Shown here in pieces: positions 8,590-16,742 of a stretch of DNA of 16,742 nucleotides (position 1 is the first letter of the stretch; every line of letters begins with the position of its first letter). The stretch spans positions 1 to 16,742 of the forward strand of contig JAUYSF010000009.1 of the NCBI GenBank assembly GCA_030696435.1. Direction: 5' to 3'. The notes beneath the pieces are model-generated. The model was given only the letters and a program-made list of their open reading frames with translations. It did no database searches and had not been told where the DNA came from. The DNA comes from Desulfoprunum sp. (GTDB lineage: Bacteria > Desulfobacterota > Desulfobulbia > Desulfobulbales > Desulfocapsaceae). Made by a program: the position numbers and the translations under genes.

Positions 8590-9606
8590 ATGCATATACT
8601 GGTTACTGGGGGGGCTGGTTACATAGGTAGCCACACCTGTCTTGAACTGCTGAACGCGGGCCATGAGGTGACGGTGGTCGACAATCTCTGCAATGCCAAA
8701 GAAGAGTCACTGCGCCGGGTCATGGAACTGACTGGCAGACCACTCAGTTTTTTTCGGGTGGATCTCCGGGAGAAAAGGGCCCTGGCCGATGTCTTTGCTG
8801 GTGCAAAGAACAGAGTGGATGCCGTCATCCATTTCGCCGGCTTGAAGGCGGTGGGAGAATCGGTGGCCAAACCTCTCGCTTATTTCCAGAATAATCTCAC
8901 CGGAACCCTGGTCCTGTGTGAGGTGATGGCGGAGCAAGGGGTCAAAAATATCGTCTTCAGTTCCTCGGCAACTGTCTACGGCGATCCGGCAACTGTCCCG
9001 ATCACTGAGGATTTTCCACTTTCCTGCACCAATCCTTACGGCCGCACCAAATTAATGACAGAGGAAATTCTCCGGGATATACATGTGGCCGATAAAGAGT
9101 GGAATGTGGTCCTGCTGCGCTATTTCAACCCTGTCGGGGCGCATAGAAGCGGCAGAATAGGAGAGGATCCAAACGGCATCCCTAATAATCTGATGCCGTA
9201 TATTTCCCAGGTGGCCGTCGGTAAGCGGGAGCAGCTCTCAGTTTTCGGCAACGATTACTCTACGCCCGATGGAACAGGGGTGCGTGATTATATCCATGTG
9301 GTGGATCTCGCCCTGGGGCATGTGGTGGCGCTGGGAAAAATGCAAAAACGATCCGGGGTTGTTGTTTATAACCTTGGAACGGGACAGGGCTATAGTGTGC
9401 TGGAAATGGTAGCCGCCTTTATAAAGGCCACTGGTAAAAAGGTCCCTTATGTTGTGGCGCCACGCCGGCCCGGCGATGTCGCCGTCTGTTATGCCGATCC
9501 GCATAAGGCCATGGTTGAGCTGGGTTGGCGAGCAGAGCGCGGGATTCTTGAGATGTGTGAGGATACCTGGCGCTGGCAAATCAATAACCCCGAGGGCTTT
9601 CCCTGA
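8590..9606 (+). CDS. galE: UDP-glucose 4-epimerase
   Basis: Interconverts UDP-glucose and UDP-galactose for surface polysaccharides or galactose use; a cytoplasmic short-chain-dehydrogenase-fold enzyme. The 338-residue product begins [16 protein letters not shown], whose GxxGxxG motif binds NAD. Catalytic residues are visible as the Ser stretch FSSSATVYG (about 123-131) and the Tyr-150/Lys-154 pair in NPYGRTK. The later RYFNPVGAH and [16 protein letters not shown] motifs match GalE closely (here the Gly before VRDYIHV follows PDGT). Length equals that of the well-known enzyme. The ATG at 8590 follows GAGG at 8581-8584; an in-frame ATG at 8536 would add an unrelated extension. It appears to be a single-gene unit. 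Confidence 0.96.
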
Positions 9607-9628
9607 TCTTCAAGGAGAGGTCTCTTGC

Positions 9629-9658
9629 GGCCTAAATTTGTGGGATAAGGCCTTTTTT
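9629..9658 (+). terminator. Possible intrinsic terminator after galE
   Basis: GGCCT (9629-9633) and AGGCC (9648-9652) can pair and are followed directly by six T residues. The stem is short and the 14-nt loop is large, so termination may be weak. Confidence 0.4.
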
Positions 9659-9821
9659 CTCATAGCGGGATTTGCCTGTCAATAAAATGAATTTCGCGCT
9701 ATTTCCCGCTCCATTTTCTCAGATTTTCTTGCCGTTATAGGGATAAAATGTACATGCAATATTATATTCCTATAATCATCTGATTTTCCCCGATTTTTTC
9801 CCACTGCAGTTTCAAACCTAC

Positions 9822-9850
9822 AAATCTATAGGTCGACGACCTATAGATTT
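9822..9850. promoter_or_regulatory. 29-bp palindrome (13-bp perfect arms, 3-bp spacer)
   Basis: AAATCTATAGGTC (9822-9834) and GACCTATAGATTT (9838-9850) are perfect reverse complements separated by GAC. It lies 189 bp before the maturation protease start and 216 bp after galE. No T-run follows on either strand, so an operator for a dimeric regulator is as likely as an RNA hairpin. I do not recognise it as the site of a known regulator. Confidence 0.6.
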
Positions 9851-9928
9851 CAAAAATATGCGACAGAGTTGCATTTTATTGTCCCTCAGCTCCTATTATT
9901 GGACTGGCTTGCCTCAATAAAAATACGT

Positions 9929-9945
9929 TATATCAATATGATATA
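9929..9945. promoter_or_regulatory. 17-bp AT-rich palindrome
   Basis: TATATCA (9929-9935) and TGATATA (9939-9945) are perfect arms with an ATA spacer. It lies about 30 bp upstream of the candidate -35 hexamer, a common place for an activator site. A self-complementary AATTATTAATAATT follows at 9956-9969. Local AT richness makes chance palindromes more likely, so confidence is modest. Confidence 0.4.
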
Positions 9946-9973
9946 TGTATATGGGAATTATTAATAATTTTAC

Positions 9974-10002
9974 TTGAAGTTACCTATAACGAGTGGTACA
10001 TT
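9974..10002 (+). promoter_or_regulatory. Candidate sigma-70-type promoter of the hydrogenase/Hdr operon
   Basis: TTGAAG (9974-9979), 17 nt, then TACATT (9997-10002). Each hexamer matches four of six consensus positions at ideal spacing. Transcription would start near 10009, about 30 nt before the first gene. It is a prediction from hexamers only. Confidence 0.35.
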
Positions 10003-10038
10003 TTCGCAAAACTTTGACAAAGAGGCACTGTTTGCACA

Positions 10039-10530
10039 ATGACACAAAAAAAAATCTCAACGGTTATTTTTGGTTGTGGCAACGTAGTCATGGGTGATGA
10101 TGGCTATGGTCCTGCTGTTATTGATGAACTTAACTCTCGATATGAATTGCCTGAAGGTGTTGAGGCCATTGATGTCGGGACATGTGTGCGTGAGCATCTT
10201 TTTGATTATGTGTTGTCAGCAGAAGGCAGACCTGACAGGATCATTATCTTAGATGCGGTCGATTTTACCGACCGAAAACCCGGCGATGTCTTTCTGATGG
10301 ACACGTCAGCAATTCCTCCTAAAAAAATCCACGATTTTTCCCTCCATCAATTCCCCACCGTAAATCTGCTAGTTGAGCTGGAACAGCACACCGGTATCCG
10401 AGTGTATATTCTGGCCGCCCAGGTTGAGTGTATTCCCGAAGAAATCACCCCGGGACTTTCACCAGCCATGTCTGCTGCCGTTTCTGTAGCGTGTGAGAAG
10501 GTTTTGCAAATTCTTTCTGAAAAAAGCTAA
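10039..10530 (+). CDS. [NiFe]-hydrogenase maturation protease (HyaD/HybD/FrhD family)
   Basis: Cleaves the C-terminal extension of the hydrogenase large subunit after nickel insertion. The 163-residue product opens with FGCGNVVMGDDGYGP (11-25), the family signature, with an acidic nickel-contacting position at Asp-21. IIILDAVDF (68-76) supplies the second acidic position and HQFP (103-106) the conserved His. The length is typical. The 'GCGN...GDDGYG' form resembles proteases that serve group 3 (F420/methyl-viologen-type) hydrogenases, fitting the mvhG-mvhA genes at the other end of this operon. The ribosome binding site is weak (AGAGG 13 nt upstream). The gene stops 15 nt before the HTH/HdrC/CCG fusion gene and is probably cotranscribed with it. 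Confidence 0.92.
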   Translation: MTQKKISTVIFGCGNVVMGDDGYGPAVIDELNSRYELPEGVEAIDVGTCVREHLFDYVLSAEGRPDRIIILDAVDFTDRKPGDVFLMDTSAIPPKKIHDFSLHQFPTVNLLVELEQHTGIRVYILAAQVECIPEEITPGLSPAMSAAVSVACEKVLQILSEKS

Positions 10531-10545
10531 ATGAGGTGACCTTTT

Positions 10546-12003
10546 ATGATGTACGAATTTAGAGTCAGCGAAATGGCAGAGGAATTTGGTGTACATCGGA
10601 ACACCATAAGAAACTGGATTGCCGCCGGGACTCTTCCTGCCAAGGAAGGTCCTGGTCGCAAGTATCTTATGAAATTCCATGATTACCAAGTCCTTTGTGA
10701 GAAGTTTGGCCGCGAGCCGGTTATTCACCCCAGCAACCATGTCGAGCTTGCCAACATCCAGTCGATGGAGGCCTTGGCAGGGCAGATGGTTCCCATGGAG
10801 CTGGATGGTCATCATAGTGCGTTGGCCATTGATCCAAGCTGGGCCGATGCCTGTCTGACCTGTGGTACCTGTGCCAGTGCCTGCCCCATTGCCGGTGTTG
10901 ACGGCCTGGATCCGCGCAAGATCGTCCGTATGGCGGTTCTCGGTATGGATAAAGAATTGGTTGATTCGCAGTGGCCGTGGAAATGCACGATGTGCGGCAA
11001 GTGCGAGGAATCTTGTCCTGCTAGTATCCAGATCACCGCACTCATGCGCAAGATTCGCGGTACCCGTGATCGGGACAAGGTGCCCGGTCCGATTCACAAA
11101 GGTGTCGTCATGTGCCTTGAGCGTGGCAACAATCTCGGCATCCCGAAAGACGACTTCGTCTTCCTCTGTGAAGAACTTGGCGAGGAGCTGGCGGCTGACT
11201 GCTGTCCCGGTTTTGTCACCCCTGTCGATGTGCATGGAGCCAGGGTTCTTGTGACTGTCAACTCCAAGGAACCTTTCGCTGAGCCCGACGATATGAAATG
11301 GTGGTGGAAGATTTTCTATGCCGCCGGCGAATCCTGGACCATCCCCTCCGAAAACTGGGAAGGCGTGAACTGGGGCCTGTTCTCCGGTGACGACGCTTCC
11401 ATGAAAGTGGTTGTCGGCCGAATCGTCGACAACATGCGGAGGTTGAACTGTAAAGTTCTCCTCCTCCCGGAATGAGGCCACGCATACTTTGCAACCCGGT
11501 CCGGGTTGAACAGATGGTTTCCAGAAGTTTTCAAAGAATTCAAAGTAATGTCCATATTCGAGTTGATGCTTGAATATCTCCGAGAAGGCAAGATTCAGGT
11601 TGATAATACCATTCATACCCATCCTGCCGCCTACCATGATCCCTGCAACTATGGCCGAAAGTCGCTGAAGGCATTCGGGCAGGCCTTCTTTGAAGAAGGC
11701 CGCGAGATTGCTAAGGCCTGCTGTACCGACCTGCGGGAGCTCAATCCCAACAGGAATGGGGCCTACTGCTGTGGCGCCGGTGGTGGTGCCTGGGCCATGC
11801 CTTTTAATGCTGAACGCGTATATTATGGTCGGACCAAGGCCCGCCAGATTTCCGAATCAGGTGCTGAGTTGGTAATTGCCCCGTGCCATAACTGCCGTGA
11901 CCAGATCATGAAATCCCTTAACAAGGAATATGAGCTCAATGTCGAGGTCAAATACCTGTGGGAACTGGTGGCGGATTCGCTCATCATGCCGAATAAGCAA
12001 TAA
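10546..12003 (+). CDS. HTH-HdrC-CCG fusion iron-sulfur oxidoreductase, selenoprotein (Sec at UGA 11473)
   Basis: Read through the in-frame UGA at 11473-11475 as Sec-310, this is a 485-residue protein. Residues about 4-55 form an excisionase/MerR-type helix-turn-helix (SEMAEEFGVHRNTIRNWIAA). Residues 100-160 are an HdrC-like two-[4Fe-4S] ferredoxin (C103, C106, C109, C113 and C147, C150, C153, C157). Residues about 205-485 are a CCG-type domain as in HdrB, HdrD, GlcF and DsrK: Sec stands in the family's E-C-G-H-A-Y motif (PEUGHAYF), and C367, C408-C409 and CHNC (447-450) form a complete second cysteine set; the first set is degenerate. It likely takes the place of HdrB plus HdrC beside HdrA, reducing a disulfide-type acceptor that the sequence does not identify. 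GAGGTGA at 10533-10539 precedes ATG-ATG (10546, 10549). The HTH fusion is odd and could mean a redox-sensing regulator instead of, or as well as, an enzyme. Confidence 0.88.
11492..11508 (+). promoter_or_regulatory. bSECIS-like hairpin after UGA 11473
   Basis: CAACCCG (11492-11498) and CGGGTTG (11502-11508) pair perfectly around the loop GTC, with G first in the loop. The stem begins 16 nt after the UGA and lies inside the coding sequence. This fits the bacterial SECIS pattern in which SelB binds an apical hairpin just downstream of the Sec codon. Confidence 0.85.
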
Positions 12004-12035
12004 AAGCTAAGATTGAAAAACACTGGTGAGTGGTT

Positions 12036-12053
12036 CTTGTCTGTGAAGACAAG
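12036..12053 (+). other. Intercistronic hairpin between the CCG fusion gene and hdrA
   Basis: CTTGTCT (12036-12042) and AGACAAG (12047-12053) pair perfectly around GTGA, with two further possible T-G pairs outside. It lies in the 130-nt gap, the longest inside this operon. No T-run follows, so an RNA stability or processing element is more likely than a terminator. Confidence 0.5.
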
Positions 12054-12133
12054 GGCTTGAGAATAAGGAAATATCCTGCTGTTCTCTAAAATAATGGGAT
12101 ATGTATATTAATAATCGAGAGGAGACACCTATC

Positions 12134-15100
12134 ATGCTTGACACTAAAAAAGTTGGGTCGGTAATGATTGTGGGAGGTGGAGTCACAGGGATGCAGGCAG
12201 CCCTGGATCTCGCTGATTCCGGATACTATGTTTACCTGGTTGAAAAATCAGGCGCTATCGGCGGTGCCATGGCGCAACTGGACAAGACCTTCCCGACCAA
12301 TGATTGCTCGATGTGAATTATCGCGCCAAAATTGGTTGAGTGCGGTCGGCACTTAAATATCAAGTTGATGACTCTCAGCGAAGTTACCGGGGTTGCCGGT
12401 GTTGCTGGAGATTTTACCGTAACAGTGAAAGAGGCTCCACGGTATGTGGACATGGATAAGTGCATCGCCTGTGGCGCCTGTACCGAGAAGTGTCCGAAAA
12501 AAGTGGACAGCGAGTACAATGCCGGCACCGGCAAACGTAAGTCCATCTATGTAAAATATGCCCAGGCTGTACCCCTGAAGTACCAGATCGATCCTGCCAC
12601 GTGTATCCGCCTGCAAAAGCCGGGTGCCTGCGGATTCTGTGAAAAGGTCTGTGATGCCGGGGCGATCAATTTCGACGATACCGAAAAAATTCATCAGATC
12701 AACGTTGGAGCGGTTGTATTGGCCCCCGGTTTTGAGGCCTACGATCCAACAGAGGCCAAGGTCTGGGGTTTCGGCACCCTACCCAATGTCATTACCTCTC
12801 TGCAGTTGGAGAGATATCTGTCTGCCTCCGGCCCTACCGAGGGACATCTCGTTCGTCCTTCCGATGGCAAACCGGTCAACAAAGTGGCCTTCCTGCAGTG
12901 TATCGGTTCCCGTGACGAGAACCTCTGCGGCAACGGTTACTGTTCTTCCGTCTGCTGTATGTACGCGATCAAAGAGGCCGTTATCGCTAAAGATCATGTA
13001 CAGGGCCTGTCGGCGAGCATCTTCTATATGGATATGCGGACCCACGGCAAGGATTTTGATAAGTACATGGTTCGGGCCAAAGAAGATTCCGGCGTACGTT
13101 TTGTCCGCTGCCGGGTAAATGGCATCGAGGCCCAGGGCACCAACGGCGACTTGCGCCTCCATTATATCAATGAGGGTGGACGCCAGGTTGAAGAGTACTA
13201 CGATATGGTGGTCCTCTCTGTCGGTCTGCAAACGCCGAAACACGTTCTGGAGCTTGCCGAAACTGCCGGAATTCAACTCACTGCCGACAAGTTTGCCGCA
13301 ACCTCTGACTTTGCCCCGGTCCAGACCTCGCGGGCCGGTATCTTTACCTGCGGCTCCTTCGCCGGTCCCAAAGATATTCCCCAGTCAGTGGTCGAGGGAT
13401 CTGCCGCTGCTGCTGCAGTCGCTGATCTTCTGGCGCCGGCACGGCATCAGCTGTCCTCCGAGGCTACCTTCCCGGCTGAGAAGGATATCAGTAGTGAAGA
13501 TCCGCGGATCGGCGTTTTTGTCTGCCATTGCGGTTCCAACATTGCCGGTGTCGTCGATGTGAAAGCGGTTGAGGATTATGCCTCCACCCTGCCAAACGTC
13601 GTCTATGTCGAGCGGAACCTGTTCTCTTGTTCGCAGGACACCCAGGAACAGATAACCAAGACGATTCAGGAGAAGAACCTGAACCGTATCGTTATCGCCG
13701 CCTGTACCCCGCGGACCCATGAGCCACTTTTCCGCGAGACTCTCAAGGCCGCTGGATTGAATGAATATCTCGTCGAGATGGCCAACATCAGGAACCATAA
13801 TTCCTGGGTTCATGTCGCAGAGCCCGCCAAGGCAACCGCCAAGGCCAAGGATCTGGTAAGGATGGCGGCTGCCAAAGTGACCTGGAGTGCTTCGCTGAAG
13901 CCGATCTCCGTGCCGATCACCCAGAAAGGTCTGATCATCGGTGGCGGTGTGGCCGGTATGACCGCTGCCCTGAATCTGGCTGAGCAGGGATTTGAGGTGC
14001 ATCTGGTTGAGCGCACCGAGACCCTCGGTGGCAATGCCCTGTATCTCAAGCATACCTGGTCGGGCGAACATATCCCAACCCAGGTCGCCAAGCTGGTCGA
14101 CAAGGTGGTATGGAACGACAAGATCACCATTCACAAGGGCTTTGAAGTATCGGCCGTTGAGGGATTTGTCGGCAATTTCAAGTCGACCATCAGCTCAAAA
14201 GAAGGTGTCTCCAAGGTCATCGAGCACGGCATCGGCATCGTCGCTACCGGTGGCAGTATCTATACCCCAACCGAGTATGGTTACGGCAGCATCAAGCGGG
14301 TGGTCACTTCCATCGAGTTCGACAAGCTGCATGAACTCAAGGAGAAGAGCATTAAGGCAAGTCATAACTTTGTCTTTATTCAATGTGTCGGCTCCAGAGA
14401 GTCTGATCACATGTACTGCTCCAAGGTCTGCTGTACCCATTCGGTGCAATCGGCGATTGAACTGAAGAAGGAAGATCCTTCTCGCAATGTCTACATCCTC
14501 TATCGTGATATGCGAACCTACGGGCAGCGTGAGGCCCTGTATCGCCAAGCCCGGAAAATGGGCATCATCTTCATCAACTATGAACTCCACGGAAAACCGC
14601 TGGTTACGGAAGACGGTCATGTGGTTGATGTCGAGGTCTGGGATCATGTCCTGCACCGTCCGCTGAAAATCAAAGCGGATATGGTGATACTGGCTTCCGC
14701 CATCAGGCCGAAGTCCGATGCCGCAGAACTTGGCAAGCTCTATAAGATTCCCGTCGATGGTGATGGCTTCTTCCAGGAGGCCCATGCCAAGCTCAAACCG
14801 GTTGATTTCTCAACCGATGGTATGTTTGTGGCCGGTATGGCGCATTACCCGAAACCGATCGAGGAATCAGTAGCCCAGGCCCTGGCCGCGGCTGCCCGTG
14901 CCGCAACACTGCTGTCAAAACACGAAGTCTCTCTTGATGCAGTGAAGGCAACCGTTGATCCTGACTACTGTGACGGCTGCGCCCTCTGTGTCGATGTCTG
15001 TCCTTATAACGCTATCACCCTGTTGACCAAAGAGGCTGCGACCGAAGGCGGTCAGGCCCATAAGATCATCGAGGTTAATAAGGCGCAGTGCAAAGGTTGT

Positions 15101-15199
15101 GGTTTGTGCCAAGGCACCTGCCCAAAGAGAGGCGTGTATGTTTCCGGCTTCACGATGAAACAGATCAGCAGTCAGATTCAGGCGGCCCTTGCGGTCTGA
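12134..15199 (+). CDS. hdrA: HdrA-type flavoprotein with two FAD modules, selenoprotein (Sec at UGA 12314)
   Basis: HdrA is the flavin-containing, electron-bifurcating core of heterodisulfide reductase complexes. Reading UGA 12314-12316 as Sec-61 gives 1021 residues, well above the roughly 650 of archaeal HdrA. First half: FAD motif [15 protein letters not shown] (14-28), the motif DCSMU with Sec in place of Cys, an inserted ferredoxin (C110, C113, C116, C120; C157, C166, C169, C173) and the Cys-rich HdrA signature CIGSRD...YCSSVCC (256-275). Second half: N-terminal HdrA domain [16 protein letters not shown] (about 461-476), a second FAD motif IIGGGVAGM (about 601-609), a second CVGSRE...YCSKVCC (751-767) and a C-terminal two-cluster ferredoxin (C946-C956, C986-C996). 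The start ATG 12134 has AGGAGA 8 nt upstream; the in-frame ATG 12101 does not. The final TGA at 15197 is a true stop: another TGA follows four codons later. No signal peptide, so cytoplasmic. Confidence 0.93.
12336..12356 (+). promoter_or_regulatory. bSECIS-like hairpin after UGA 12314
   Basis: TTGAGTGC (12336-12343) pairs with GCACTTAA (12349-12356), including one G-U pair, around the loop GGTCG. The stem begins 19 nt after the UGA. The GGTC in the loop echoes the GGTC core of the well-studied formate dehydrogenase SECIS loop. Confidence 0.85.
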
Positions 15200-15254
15200 T
15201 TCTCATGTTGAATAACCTAGAAATGAACTTTTACGTTTATAAGGAGTAGATCAA

Positions 15255-15677
15255 ATGAGTTTTGAGCCAAAAATCATTGCATTCTGCTGCAACTGGTGCT
15301 CCTACGCCGCTGCTGATCTGGCTGGAACGGCCAGGATGCAGTATCCGCATAACGTGCGGATTATCCGTGTAATGTGCTCAGGTATGGTTCATCCTGAGCA
15401 TGTAATGGATGCCCTTGGCCAAGGTGCCGATGGTGTCCTGGTACTTGGCTGACACCTCGGTGAATGTCATTACCTGGATGGTAATTATAAAGCTATGAGC
15501 CGCTCTAACATGATCACTGAACTGTTGGAAGACTTTGGATATGATAACGGTCGATTTGAAATAACCTGGGTTTCCTCCGCCGAGCCTGATAAATTTGTCA
15601 AAGCAGTCACCGATATGACAAATCGTATCAAGAAGTTGGGCCCCATCAACAATCAAGATGCCGCAGTCACGGCATAA
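15255..15677 (+). CDS. mvhD: MvhD-type hydrogenase/Hdr electron-transfer subunit, selenoprotein (Sec at UGA 15450)
   Basis: MvhD carries a [2Fe-2S] cluster and passes electrons from the MvhAG hydrogenase to HdrA. Reading UGA 15450-15452 as Sec-66 gives 140 residues, the normal family length; stopping there would leave only 65. Conserved cysteines are C11, C12 and C15 (FCCNWCSY), C41 (VMCSGMV) and C71. The usual G-C-H-x-G-x-C-H-Y motif reads [14 protein letters not shown], so Sec replaces the first Cys. The sequence after it ([21 protein letters not shown]) continues the family without a break. AAGGAG (15241-15246) sits 8 nt before the ATG. The gene lies 55 nt after hdrA and 11 nt before mvhG. 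It is soluble with no membrane segment. Confidence 0.93.
15469..15485 (+). promoter_or_regulatory. bSECIS-like hairpin after UGA 15450
   Basis: ATTACC (15469-15474) and GGTAAT (15480-15485) pair perfectly around TGGAT, with G at loop positions 2 and 3. The stem begins 16 nt after the UGA, the same distance as in the CCG fusion gene. Confidence 0.82.
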
Positions 15678-15688
15678 AGGAGGGTGAT

Positions 15689-16633
15689 ATGGGTGTACGA
15701 ACAGCTCTCGAATGGCTGGGCTCATGTTCCGGTTGCGAAATCGCGATCCTGAATATCGGCGAGGCCTTGATTCCAATCATCACCGAGGCCCTTGAAATCG
15801 TTCATGCCCCTGTGCTTATGGATCATAAGTACTTCGGCCAGTGCGGTGAGGGCCTTACGCTCGAGATCCCGGAGGCTGTCGTCGGTATTGTCACCGGCGG
15901 TGTCAGCAACCATGAGCATCTCGAGGTACTCGAAGAAATGCGCAAAAAATGCACGGTCCTGATTGCTCTGGGAACCTGTGCGACCCATGGTGGCATTCCA
16001 TCCCTGATGAATGGTCAGGATCGTAAGACCAGTTGGGAAGAAATCTACCAGACAATAACCACCGATCCAGGCGCCAAGGTCCCGACCATTGAGGTCCCGG
16101 CGCCACTGGATCGAGTCTATGCCTGTGACGAGAAGGTCAAGATTGACATGCAGCTTCCCGGCTGCCCGCCCAATCCGGCCCACATTGCCGAGGTCATTAT
16201 CTCACTTTTGGAAGGTAGGCCTCCAGTGCTGCCCGGTAAGAGTGTCTGTGACAGTTGCCCAACCAAACGGGAAGGCAAAGGCGCTGTCACGAAGGTAAAA
16301 CGTTTTATTACCAATGCCGAGTTCACCGCCGGTGAGCCGATCAGCGAGATGCGCTGTCTGCTTGAGCAGGGGTATATGTGCATGGGTCCGGTTACGGCAG
16401 CAGGCTGCGCCAAACTCGGTTCGCCAAGCTGCATCAGCGCCCGTGTACCATGTAGGGGCTGTTATGGACCTGTACTCAAGGACGGCAATCAGCTGCTTGA
16501 TATGATGAATGCGCTGGCGAGTAATGGCATTGATTTCAATTCAGTGACTGATCGTCGGTCCCTGCTGAGATTTTCCGGGGCACATGGAATGCTCAAGCCA
16601 GTCAAAAAACGGGTAGAAGAGGAGGAAGGTTAA
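15689..16633 (+). CDS. mvhG: F420-non-reducing-type [NiFe]-hydrogenase small subunit
   Basis: Carries the iron-sulfur chain that takes electrons from the NiFe site of the large subunit. The 314-residue product has the proximal-cluster ligands of small subunits: C13 and C16 (SCSGC), C97 (GTCATHGG) and C159 (PGCPPNP). A second half rich in cysteine (C187, C190, C223, C231, C240, C248, C255, C258) fits two further clusters, as in MvhG and FrhG-like group 3 enzymes. There is no twin-arginine signal, which supports a cytoplasmic group 3 enzyme and not a periplasmic uptake hydrogenase. A strong ribosome binding site (GGAGG at 15679-15683) precedes the ATG. It sits between mvhD and mvhA, the same D-G-A order as in methanogens. 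All expected cysteines are present and no in-frame UGA is seen. Confidence 0.94.
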
Positions 16634-16634
16634 T

Positions 16635-16742
16635 ATGGGAACTGTACTAAATATTGCACCAGTTTCCCGCATAGAAGGACACGCAAAAATTGCCATCCAT
16701 CTTGACGATGCCGGCAATGTTGAAGATGCATTTCTGCACATT
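16635..16742 (+). CDS. mvhA: [NiFe]-hydrogenase large subunit, N-terminal fragment (cut by window end)
   Basis: Only the first 36 codons are in the window. They read [20 protein letters not shown] and continue, carrying RIEGH (12-16), the N-terminal hallmark of [NiFe]-hydrogenase large subunits, at the usual distance from the start. The ATG lies one base after the mvhG stop, with GGAGGAAGG (16621-16629) inside the mvhG end, so translation is tightly coupled. The nickel-binding CxxC motifs lie outside. Given three Sec residues upstream, it would be worth knowing whether the C-terminal CxxC here is UxxC, as in some related hydrogenases. Confidence 0.9.

Follow-up and report, generated by a model that had tools for sequence, protein, structure and literature searches.

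An operon with the gene order glpC-hdrA-frhD-frhG-frhA and selenocysteine (Sec) in GlpC, HdrA, FrhD and FrhA was reported by Zhang et al. in 2006 (PMC1794560) from Syntrophobacter fumaroxidans and Desulfotalea psychrophila. A 2026 review (PMC13188914), in its available text, returns to this four-selenoprotein-gene operon, regards it as unclear how FrhA and FrhD interact with HdrA and GlpC, and assigns selenoproteins of the HdrA, VhuD and VhuU type to nearly all Sec-using archaea. Here we analyse a 16,742-nucleotide stretch of Desulfoprunum sp. (Desulfobulbales; assembly GCA_030696435.1, contig JAUYSF010000009.1), hereafter the window, which is the whole of contig C77 in an assembly of 3.82 Mb and 494 contigs. 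It carries an operon of this type whose CCG protein, which we identify with the GlpC of PMC1794560, begins with a predicted winged-helix domain, and 9-bp direct repeats lie upstream of the operon. The reading towards which we lean is that this is the known deltaproteobacterial four-selenoprotein operon with a CCG protein that would bind the 9-bp repeats of its own operon and thereby autoregulate it.

The window and contig C28 of the same assembly together contain the five genes of PMC1794560 in the same order, with Sec in the same four, and the hdrA-hdrA duplication is found in both. A preliminary description of this DNA, made from its letters, had recognized a hydrogenase–heterodisulfide reductase operon with three selenoproteins. 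Its Hdr and Mvh subunit assignments are supported and its three selenoproteins all stand, but the real count is four, the fourth (mvhA) lying on C28 outside the window. Because the four-selenoprotein operon was printed in 2006, the combination of selenoproteins cannot count as the novelty it had been presented as, which leaves the winged helix and the repeats as new; that account, right but incomplete in what it observed, contained neither the helix-turn-helix (HTH) domain nor the direct repeats. Set against the available text of PMC1794560, the features described only here are a hycI gene in front of the operon, the HTH domain, the 9-bp repeats and the pattern of Sec/Cys switching over the four Sec sites; the main text of that paper, in its available form, contains no reference to a helix-turn-helix, DNA binding or transcription, and the available text of PMC5109826 adds nothing on the HTH. 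The HTH and repeats of this operon were not found in print in the accessible text of the open-licence literature, which is a weak negative.

Other described systems share parts of this architecture. Desulfobacterium autotrophicum has Sec in HdrA, HdrD4 and MvhD proteins (Strittmatter et al. 2009, PMC2702500), that is, in an HdrD-type protein, HdrA and MvhD as here, and the available text of that paper does not mention a DNA-binding domain in HdrD4. The Vhu/Hdr system of Methanococcales and the solved HdrABC–MvhAGD complex (5odc and relatives) have homologues of HdrA, MvhD, MvhG and MvhA in common with our locus, whereas a single HTH-bearing protein with only one complete CCG motif takes the place of their HdrB and HdrC. 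The nearest NCBIfam models of this protein are HmcF, TmcB and DsrK, known from electron-transfer complexes of sulfate reducers, which it matches with 202, 173 and 133 bits, far under all of their cut-offs (750, 735 and 400); these matches begin at residue 98 or later, leaving the HTH outside.

A predicted winged helix on the CCG protein and 9-bp repeats upstream

The CCG protein (10546..12003, forward strand, as are all features below) comprises an N-terminal HTH, an HdrC-like part with two [4Fe-4S] motifs and an HdrB-like fold. Residues 3–53 (10552..10704) are predicted to form a MerR/BldC-like winged-helix domain, matched by Pfam HTH_17 with 33.0 bits (cut-off 27). The structure model of this domain has a predicted local distance difference test (pLDDT) score of 91.6, and its two best structural matches are BldC–DNA complexes; a sequence search of the HTH against the PDB gave no significant match (best E 0.028). 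In an unfiltered alignment of orthologues of at least 440 residues, the recognition helix is near-invariant, with positions 15–25 kept in 93–95 of 96 sequences. Another HTH alignment is uninformative on the invariance of HRNT, because it had been pre-filtered for those letters. The linker that follows the domain is poorly conserved and modelled with low confidence. No second copy of this HTH occurs in the genome at E ≤0.01, in a search that did not extend to other HTH kinds. Cys51 (10696–10698), at the end of the domain, is invariant in 96/96 orthologues and could serve as a redox handle for this putative DNA-binding head.

Relatives of the locus were gathered from two sources. With the CCG protein as query, named genome contigs yielded 85 relatives, of which the best 80 were kept. 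In addition, 257 genomes of the order were searched; every one had a match, many of these being to distant paralogues, and 60 further stretches, mostly not already among the named contigs, were chosen among the matches listed from these genomes. Loci are cited below by L numbers.

The candidate operator of the window consists of two direct repeats of the GCAC type, spaced by 9 bp (GCACTGTTT GCACA; 10025..10038), and abuts the start codon of a hycI-type hydrogenase maturation protease gene (10039..10530; Pfam HycI, 73.5 bits; NCBIfam TIGR00072, 123.3 bits, exceeding the cut-off of 47.45). By k-mer count, TGTGCAA occurs in 63 of 89 upstream regions, against an average of 20 for the commonest shuffled 7-mer. 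Repeats are spaced by 9 bp in 90 pairs, and the runner-up spacing, 18, accounts for 18 pairs. When upstream pieces shorter than 150 bases and identical ends were left out, runs of at least two repeats were present in 77/96 HTH loci, in 0/29 HTH-less relatives and in 15 of 3000 shuffles; with one locus per relatedness cluster the counts were 26/33 and 0/13. Within the operons the repeats concentrate upstream of hycI (70/87), with few upstream of the CCG gene (7/99) or MvhD (1/83) and none upstream of HdrA (0/95), MvhG (0/73) or MvhA (0/72). The exact 14-mer has a single match in the 3.82-Mb genome, at 10025–10038, and recurs in 18/99 hycI-bearing loci, the others having 1–6 mismatches.

Streptomyces BldC (6amk, 6ama) offers the closest parallel: according to the available text of PMC5859096, each protomer binds a 9-bp direct repeat, head to tail, so that both the predicted winged-helix fold and the 9-bp direct repeats are alike. 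BldC is a stand-alone protein of 68 residues, whereas the domain here is fused into a 485-residue Fe-S selenoprotein, and the letters of the repeats differ. The match to BldC came from the fold and the 9-bp period from the DNA; the two were reached independently, and their agreement is the main argument that the winged helix probably binds DNA.

Several points weigh against binding of the operon's repeats by its own CCG protein. DNA binding is a prediction, and the half-site pattern was composed after the motif had been seen. Genomic context is a confounder of the comparison with HTH-less relatives, because these sit in other operons and were measured upstream of the CCG gene. Winged helices also act as protein contacts, so the domain might instead be a docking or structural one in a complex that is simply the known four-selenoprotein complex, the operon type being already on record (PMC1794560, available text), with the repeats serving another, unlinked regulator of hydrogen metabolism. 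We consider this unlikely, if by no means negligible: against it stand the near-invariant recognition helix, a repeat period equal to the BldC protomer footprint, and the HTH loci that have no adjacent hycI. In 6/9 of these, TTGCACA or TGTGCAA is present at most 250 nt upstream of the HTH gene, and in 5/9 (L162, L164, L166, L170 and L180) a pair of repeats is spaced by 9 bp.

A role of the repeats at the hycI start in RNA or translational signalling, and not as a DNA operator, would fit their proximity to that gene, since in 57 of 70 positive loci no more than 60 nt separate the first repeat from the start of the hycI match. We judge it quite improbable, because the repeats start about 96 and 107 nt upstream in L063 and L064, lie well upstream in L083 too, and are placed roughly 60–210 nt upstream in the hycI-less operons; in addition, no Rfam element reaches its gathering threshold in 9600–16742. 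Placement of sigma-70 promoters relative to the repeats was no better than in shuffles, and a sigma-70 scan of 9607–10100 returned 1 site against 2.0 expected. Since these scans are uninformative, we make no claim on repression or activation by a CCG protein bound at the repeats.

With up to 2 mismatches the 14-mer has 23 matches in its own genome, against 9 for the reversed pattern, and further target sites in the genome are possible. Across the order, a triple repeat pattern showed no clear excess that would indicate a genome-wide regulon.

Predicted selenocysteine in four subunits

The three in-frame UGAs of the preliminary description (11473, 12314 and 15450) are real, each within an otherwise open family frame, and in alignments with Cys homologues they line up with Cys codons. 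The first, 11473..11475, encodes Sec310 of the CCG protein in the context PE-U-GHAY. Its placement at a conserved Cys site is borne out by these homologues, but Sec310 lies outside any complete CCG motif. A full Cys set (C367, C408–C409, C447 and C450) is found only in the half opposite Sec310, whereas the Sec310 half retains C302 and Sec310, so that the protein, which has one Pfam CCG match, lacks the two complete CCG motifs of HdrD or HdrCB. In one alignment to EtfD, Sec310 coincides with the leading Cys of a CxxC. The HdrC-type pair of [4Fe-4S] motifs is present; the likeness to HdrB is found by fold only and is not significant by sequence (best E 0.029).

HdrA (12134..15199; 1021 residues) is a duplicated HdrA-HdrA flavoprotein that phmmer aligns to the solved HdrA 5odc_A in 3 stretches (E 1.6e-187); it scores 967 bits with NCBIfam HdrA2, under the cut-off of 1100. 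Its UGA (12314..12316) corresponds to Sec61 in the context DCSM-U-IIAPK. The MvhD/FlpD/VhuD subunit (15255..15677; 140 residues) has Sec66 at 15450..15452 in the context LG-U-HLGECHY. Pfam FlpD matches it with 185.3 bits, six MvhD-type PDB sequences with E values from 1.4e-50 to 8.7e-31, and NCBIfam VhuD with 150.5 bits, under the cut-off of 215. It is followed by the [NiFe] hydrogenase small subunit MvhG/VhuG (15689..16633; Pfam Oxidored_q6, 98.8 bits; NCBIfam VhuG, 204.6 bits, under the cut-off of 450) and by the first 36 codons of mvhA (16635..16742), truncated by the contig end. The end of C77 and the start of C28 share an exact overlap of 121 bases, and C28 (L118) continues mvhA. The MvhA match there (C28:14-1459), 92% identical to L026 (the cultured relative Desulfoprunum benzoelyticum), holds one in-frame TGA at D-P-U-M-S-C, and MvhA has the U-x-x-C of [NiFeSe] large subunits in its C-terminal Ni motif. 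Further along C28 are small zinc-ribbon-like, HypD-like and HypA-like frames, named from their translations rather than by family search.

Could the UGAs be true stops, and the genes split or decayed? Nothing speaks for this except the UGA codons themselves, and we reject it as having virtually no probability. Among 110 HTH-type matches, the CCG frame has a single TGA as its sole stop in 75 and is stop-free in 35. Codons at the four sites were read in HTH-type loci, some of which were drawn from both sources and are therefore counted twice. The CCG site has TGA in 75, Cys in 28 and Ser, Leu or Thr in 6 of 109 loci; the HdrA site TGA in 73, Cys in 29 and TGG in 1 of 103, the TGG belonging to the paralogue-like L180, 48% identical; and the MvhD site TGA in 59 and Cys in 33 of 92. 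The MvhA site is TGA in all 77 loci in which it was reached, in the contexts DPU-MSC, DPU-ISC and DPU-LSC. TAA or TAG occurs at none of the four sites among these 109, 103, 92 and 77 loci.

The loci with Ser, Leu or Thr at the CCG site (L051, L155, L159, L067, L070 and L157) keep the remaining protein and represent five distinct operons, L051 and L157 being identical. Twelve HTH-less CCG relatives (L071–L082), 61–67% identical, have a UGA at the same site in 12/12; some of these loci are short, and an HdrA match lies within the DNA examined in 2/12 and an MvhD match in 1/12.

Hairpins resembling the bacterial selenocysteine insertion sequence (SECIS) follow the UGAs at 11492..11508, 12336..12356 (loop GGTCG) and 15469..15485. 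The hairpins had been placed 16–19 nt after each UGA, in agreement with stems that begin at 16 nt in the CCG gene, 19 nt in HdrA and 16 nt in MvhD. Sec homologues retain such hairpins, and non-Sec homologues have for the most part lost them. In unique sequences, all pairs are formed in 43/64 Sec against 0/50 non-Sec forms of the CCG gene, in 30/49 against 2/31 of HdrA and in 35/36 against 3/41 of MvhD, and the HdrA loop GGTCG is present in 49/49 against 7/31; the comparison leans towards Sec forms, because each stem was defined on one Sec sequence (L022), and the non-Sec sets take in distant relatives without the HTH. The MvhA hairpin is formed in 67/67, with no non-Sec form for comparison. 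The preference of the hairpins for UGA forms speaks against true stops, as does the complete Sec machinery. The genome encodes selA (523.7 bits), selB (362.5 bits), selD (382.1 bits) and a tRNA-Sec (selC; anticodon TCA). Machinery, hairpins and Cys homologues together support the Sec identity of the UGAs, and judging by these sequence features the four proteins would contain Sec.

The selD gene (L119; G000:C423:5851-6801) itself has one in-frame TGA. On contig C461 of the same genome, a tRNA at L013:995-1086 (+) scores 61.6 bits with Rfam tRNA-Sec (gathering threshold 47), while ARAGORN reads its anticodon as GCA (Cys). It is flanked by a CCG-protein frame and a formate-dehydrogenase-like frame, the latter named from its translation. 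A tRNA-Cys of the selC* type is known.

Sec/Cys switching across the subunits

The exchange of Sec for Cys was followed through HTH-type loci in which the CCG protein had at least 440 residues, HdrA at least 900 residues with 50% identity or more, and MvhD at least 60 residues. This gave 88 operons, or 79 once identical ones were removed; L024 (HdrA 48%) and partial loci were excluded. We coded each operon in the order CCG-HdrA-MvhD-MvhA, with U for Sec, C for Cys, x for Ser, Leu or Thr and a dash for a site not reached or not present. Among the 79, UUUU occurred 44 times, UUU- 4, CCCU 13, CCC- 8 and UUCU 4; there were also xCCU (3), xCC- (1), xUCU (1) and CUCU (1). CCG and HdrA were both Sec in 52 operons and both non-Sec in 25, and were discordant in 2 (L070 and L182).

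The proteins were concatenated without their Sec columns, and on the resulting tree, rooted at its midpoint, parsimony required 4 changes for CCG, 4 for HdrA, 5 for MvhD and 0 for MvhA. CCG, HdrA and MvhD changed jointly in three clades: L051/L153/L154/L155/L159 (support 0.999), L156/L158 (support 1.0) and a largest clade of 17–19 tips, for which the support of 1.0 was read for a 12-tip part only. In this largest clade the changes map to adjacent nodes (18, 17 and 19 tips), while their direction depends on the midpoint rooting. MvhD also changed in L186/L188 and in L066/L067/L070. Thus the switches of CCG and HdrA nearly coincide, those of MvhD are freer, and MvhA shows none. The proposal that the electron path was tuned as a unit therefore holds in part: CCG and HdrA change nearly jointly and three clades change all three, but MvhD also changes alone and L070 and L182 are discordant.

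Since MvhA keeps Sec wherever it was reached, these switches do not reflect loss of Sec decoding; this control is missing for the 8 CCC- operons and the 1 xCC- operon. The pattern offers natural exchanges confined to part of the subunits, with MvhA as an internal control for retained Sec decoding. Seven loci (L156, L158, L162, L164, L166, L170 and L178) have the HTH-CCG protein, HdrA and MvhD, all in the Cys form, and no hycI, mvhG or mvhA in the DNA examined; hyp-like genes, read from translations, come next in L162, L166 and L178.

A possible trigger enzyme at the start of its own operon

A more specific proposal, on which we are evenly divided, is that the CCG protein is a trigger-enzyme regulator: a catalytic Fe-S/Sec protein that would also act as transcription factor for its own hydrogenase operon, sitting head to tail on the 9-bp repeats in the manner of BldC and reading H2 electron flow at the operon start. 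In the reading towards which we lean, H2 would, by homology, be oxidized at the NiFeSe site of MvhA, electrons would pass through MvhG and MvhD to the flavin of HdrA, and the HdrC/HdrB-like protein would receive one electron branch from HdrA. The BldC-like winged helix of that protein would bind the repeats head to tail, and its redox or assembly state would decide between enzyme complex and DNA, so that the operon might adjust to its own electron load. Both the formation of the complex and redox control are predicted here.

If the trigger-enzyme proposal is true, selenium would be placed in the sensing end of a regulator, and a BldC-type DNA-binding domain would bear an effector domain. Should the GlpC-like protein also regulate genes by binding DNA, sulfate reducers would have a direct link that joins hydrogen electron flow with selenium and gene control.

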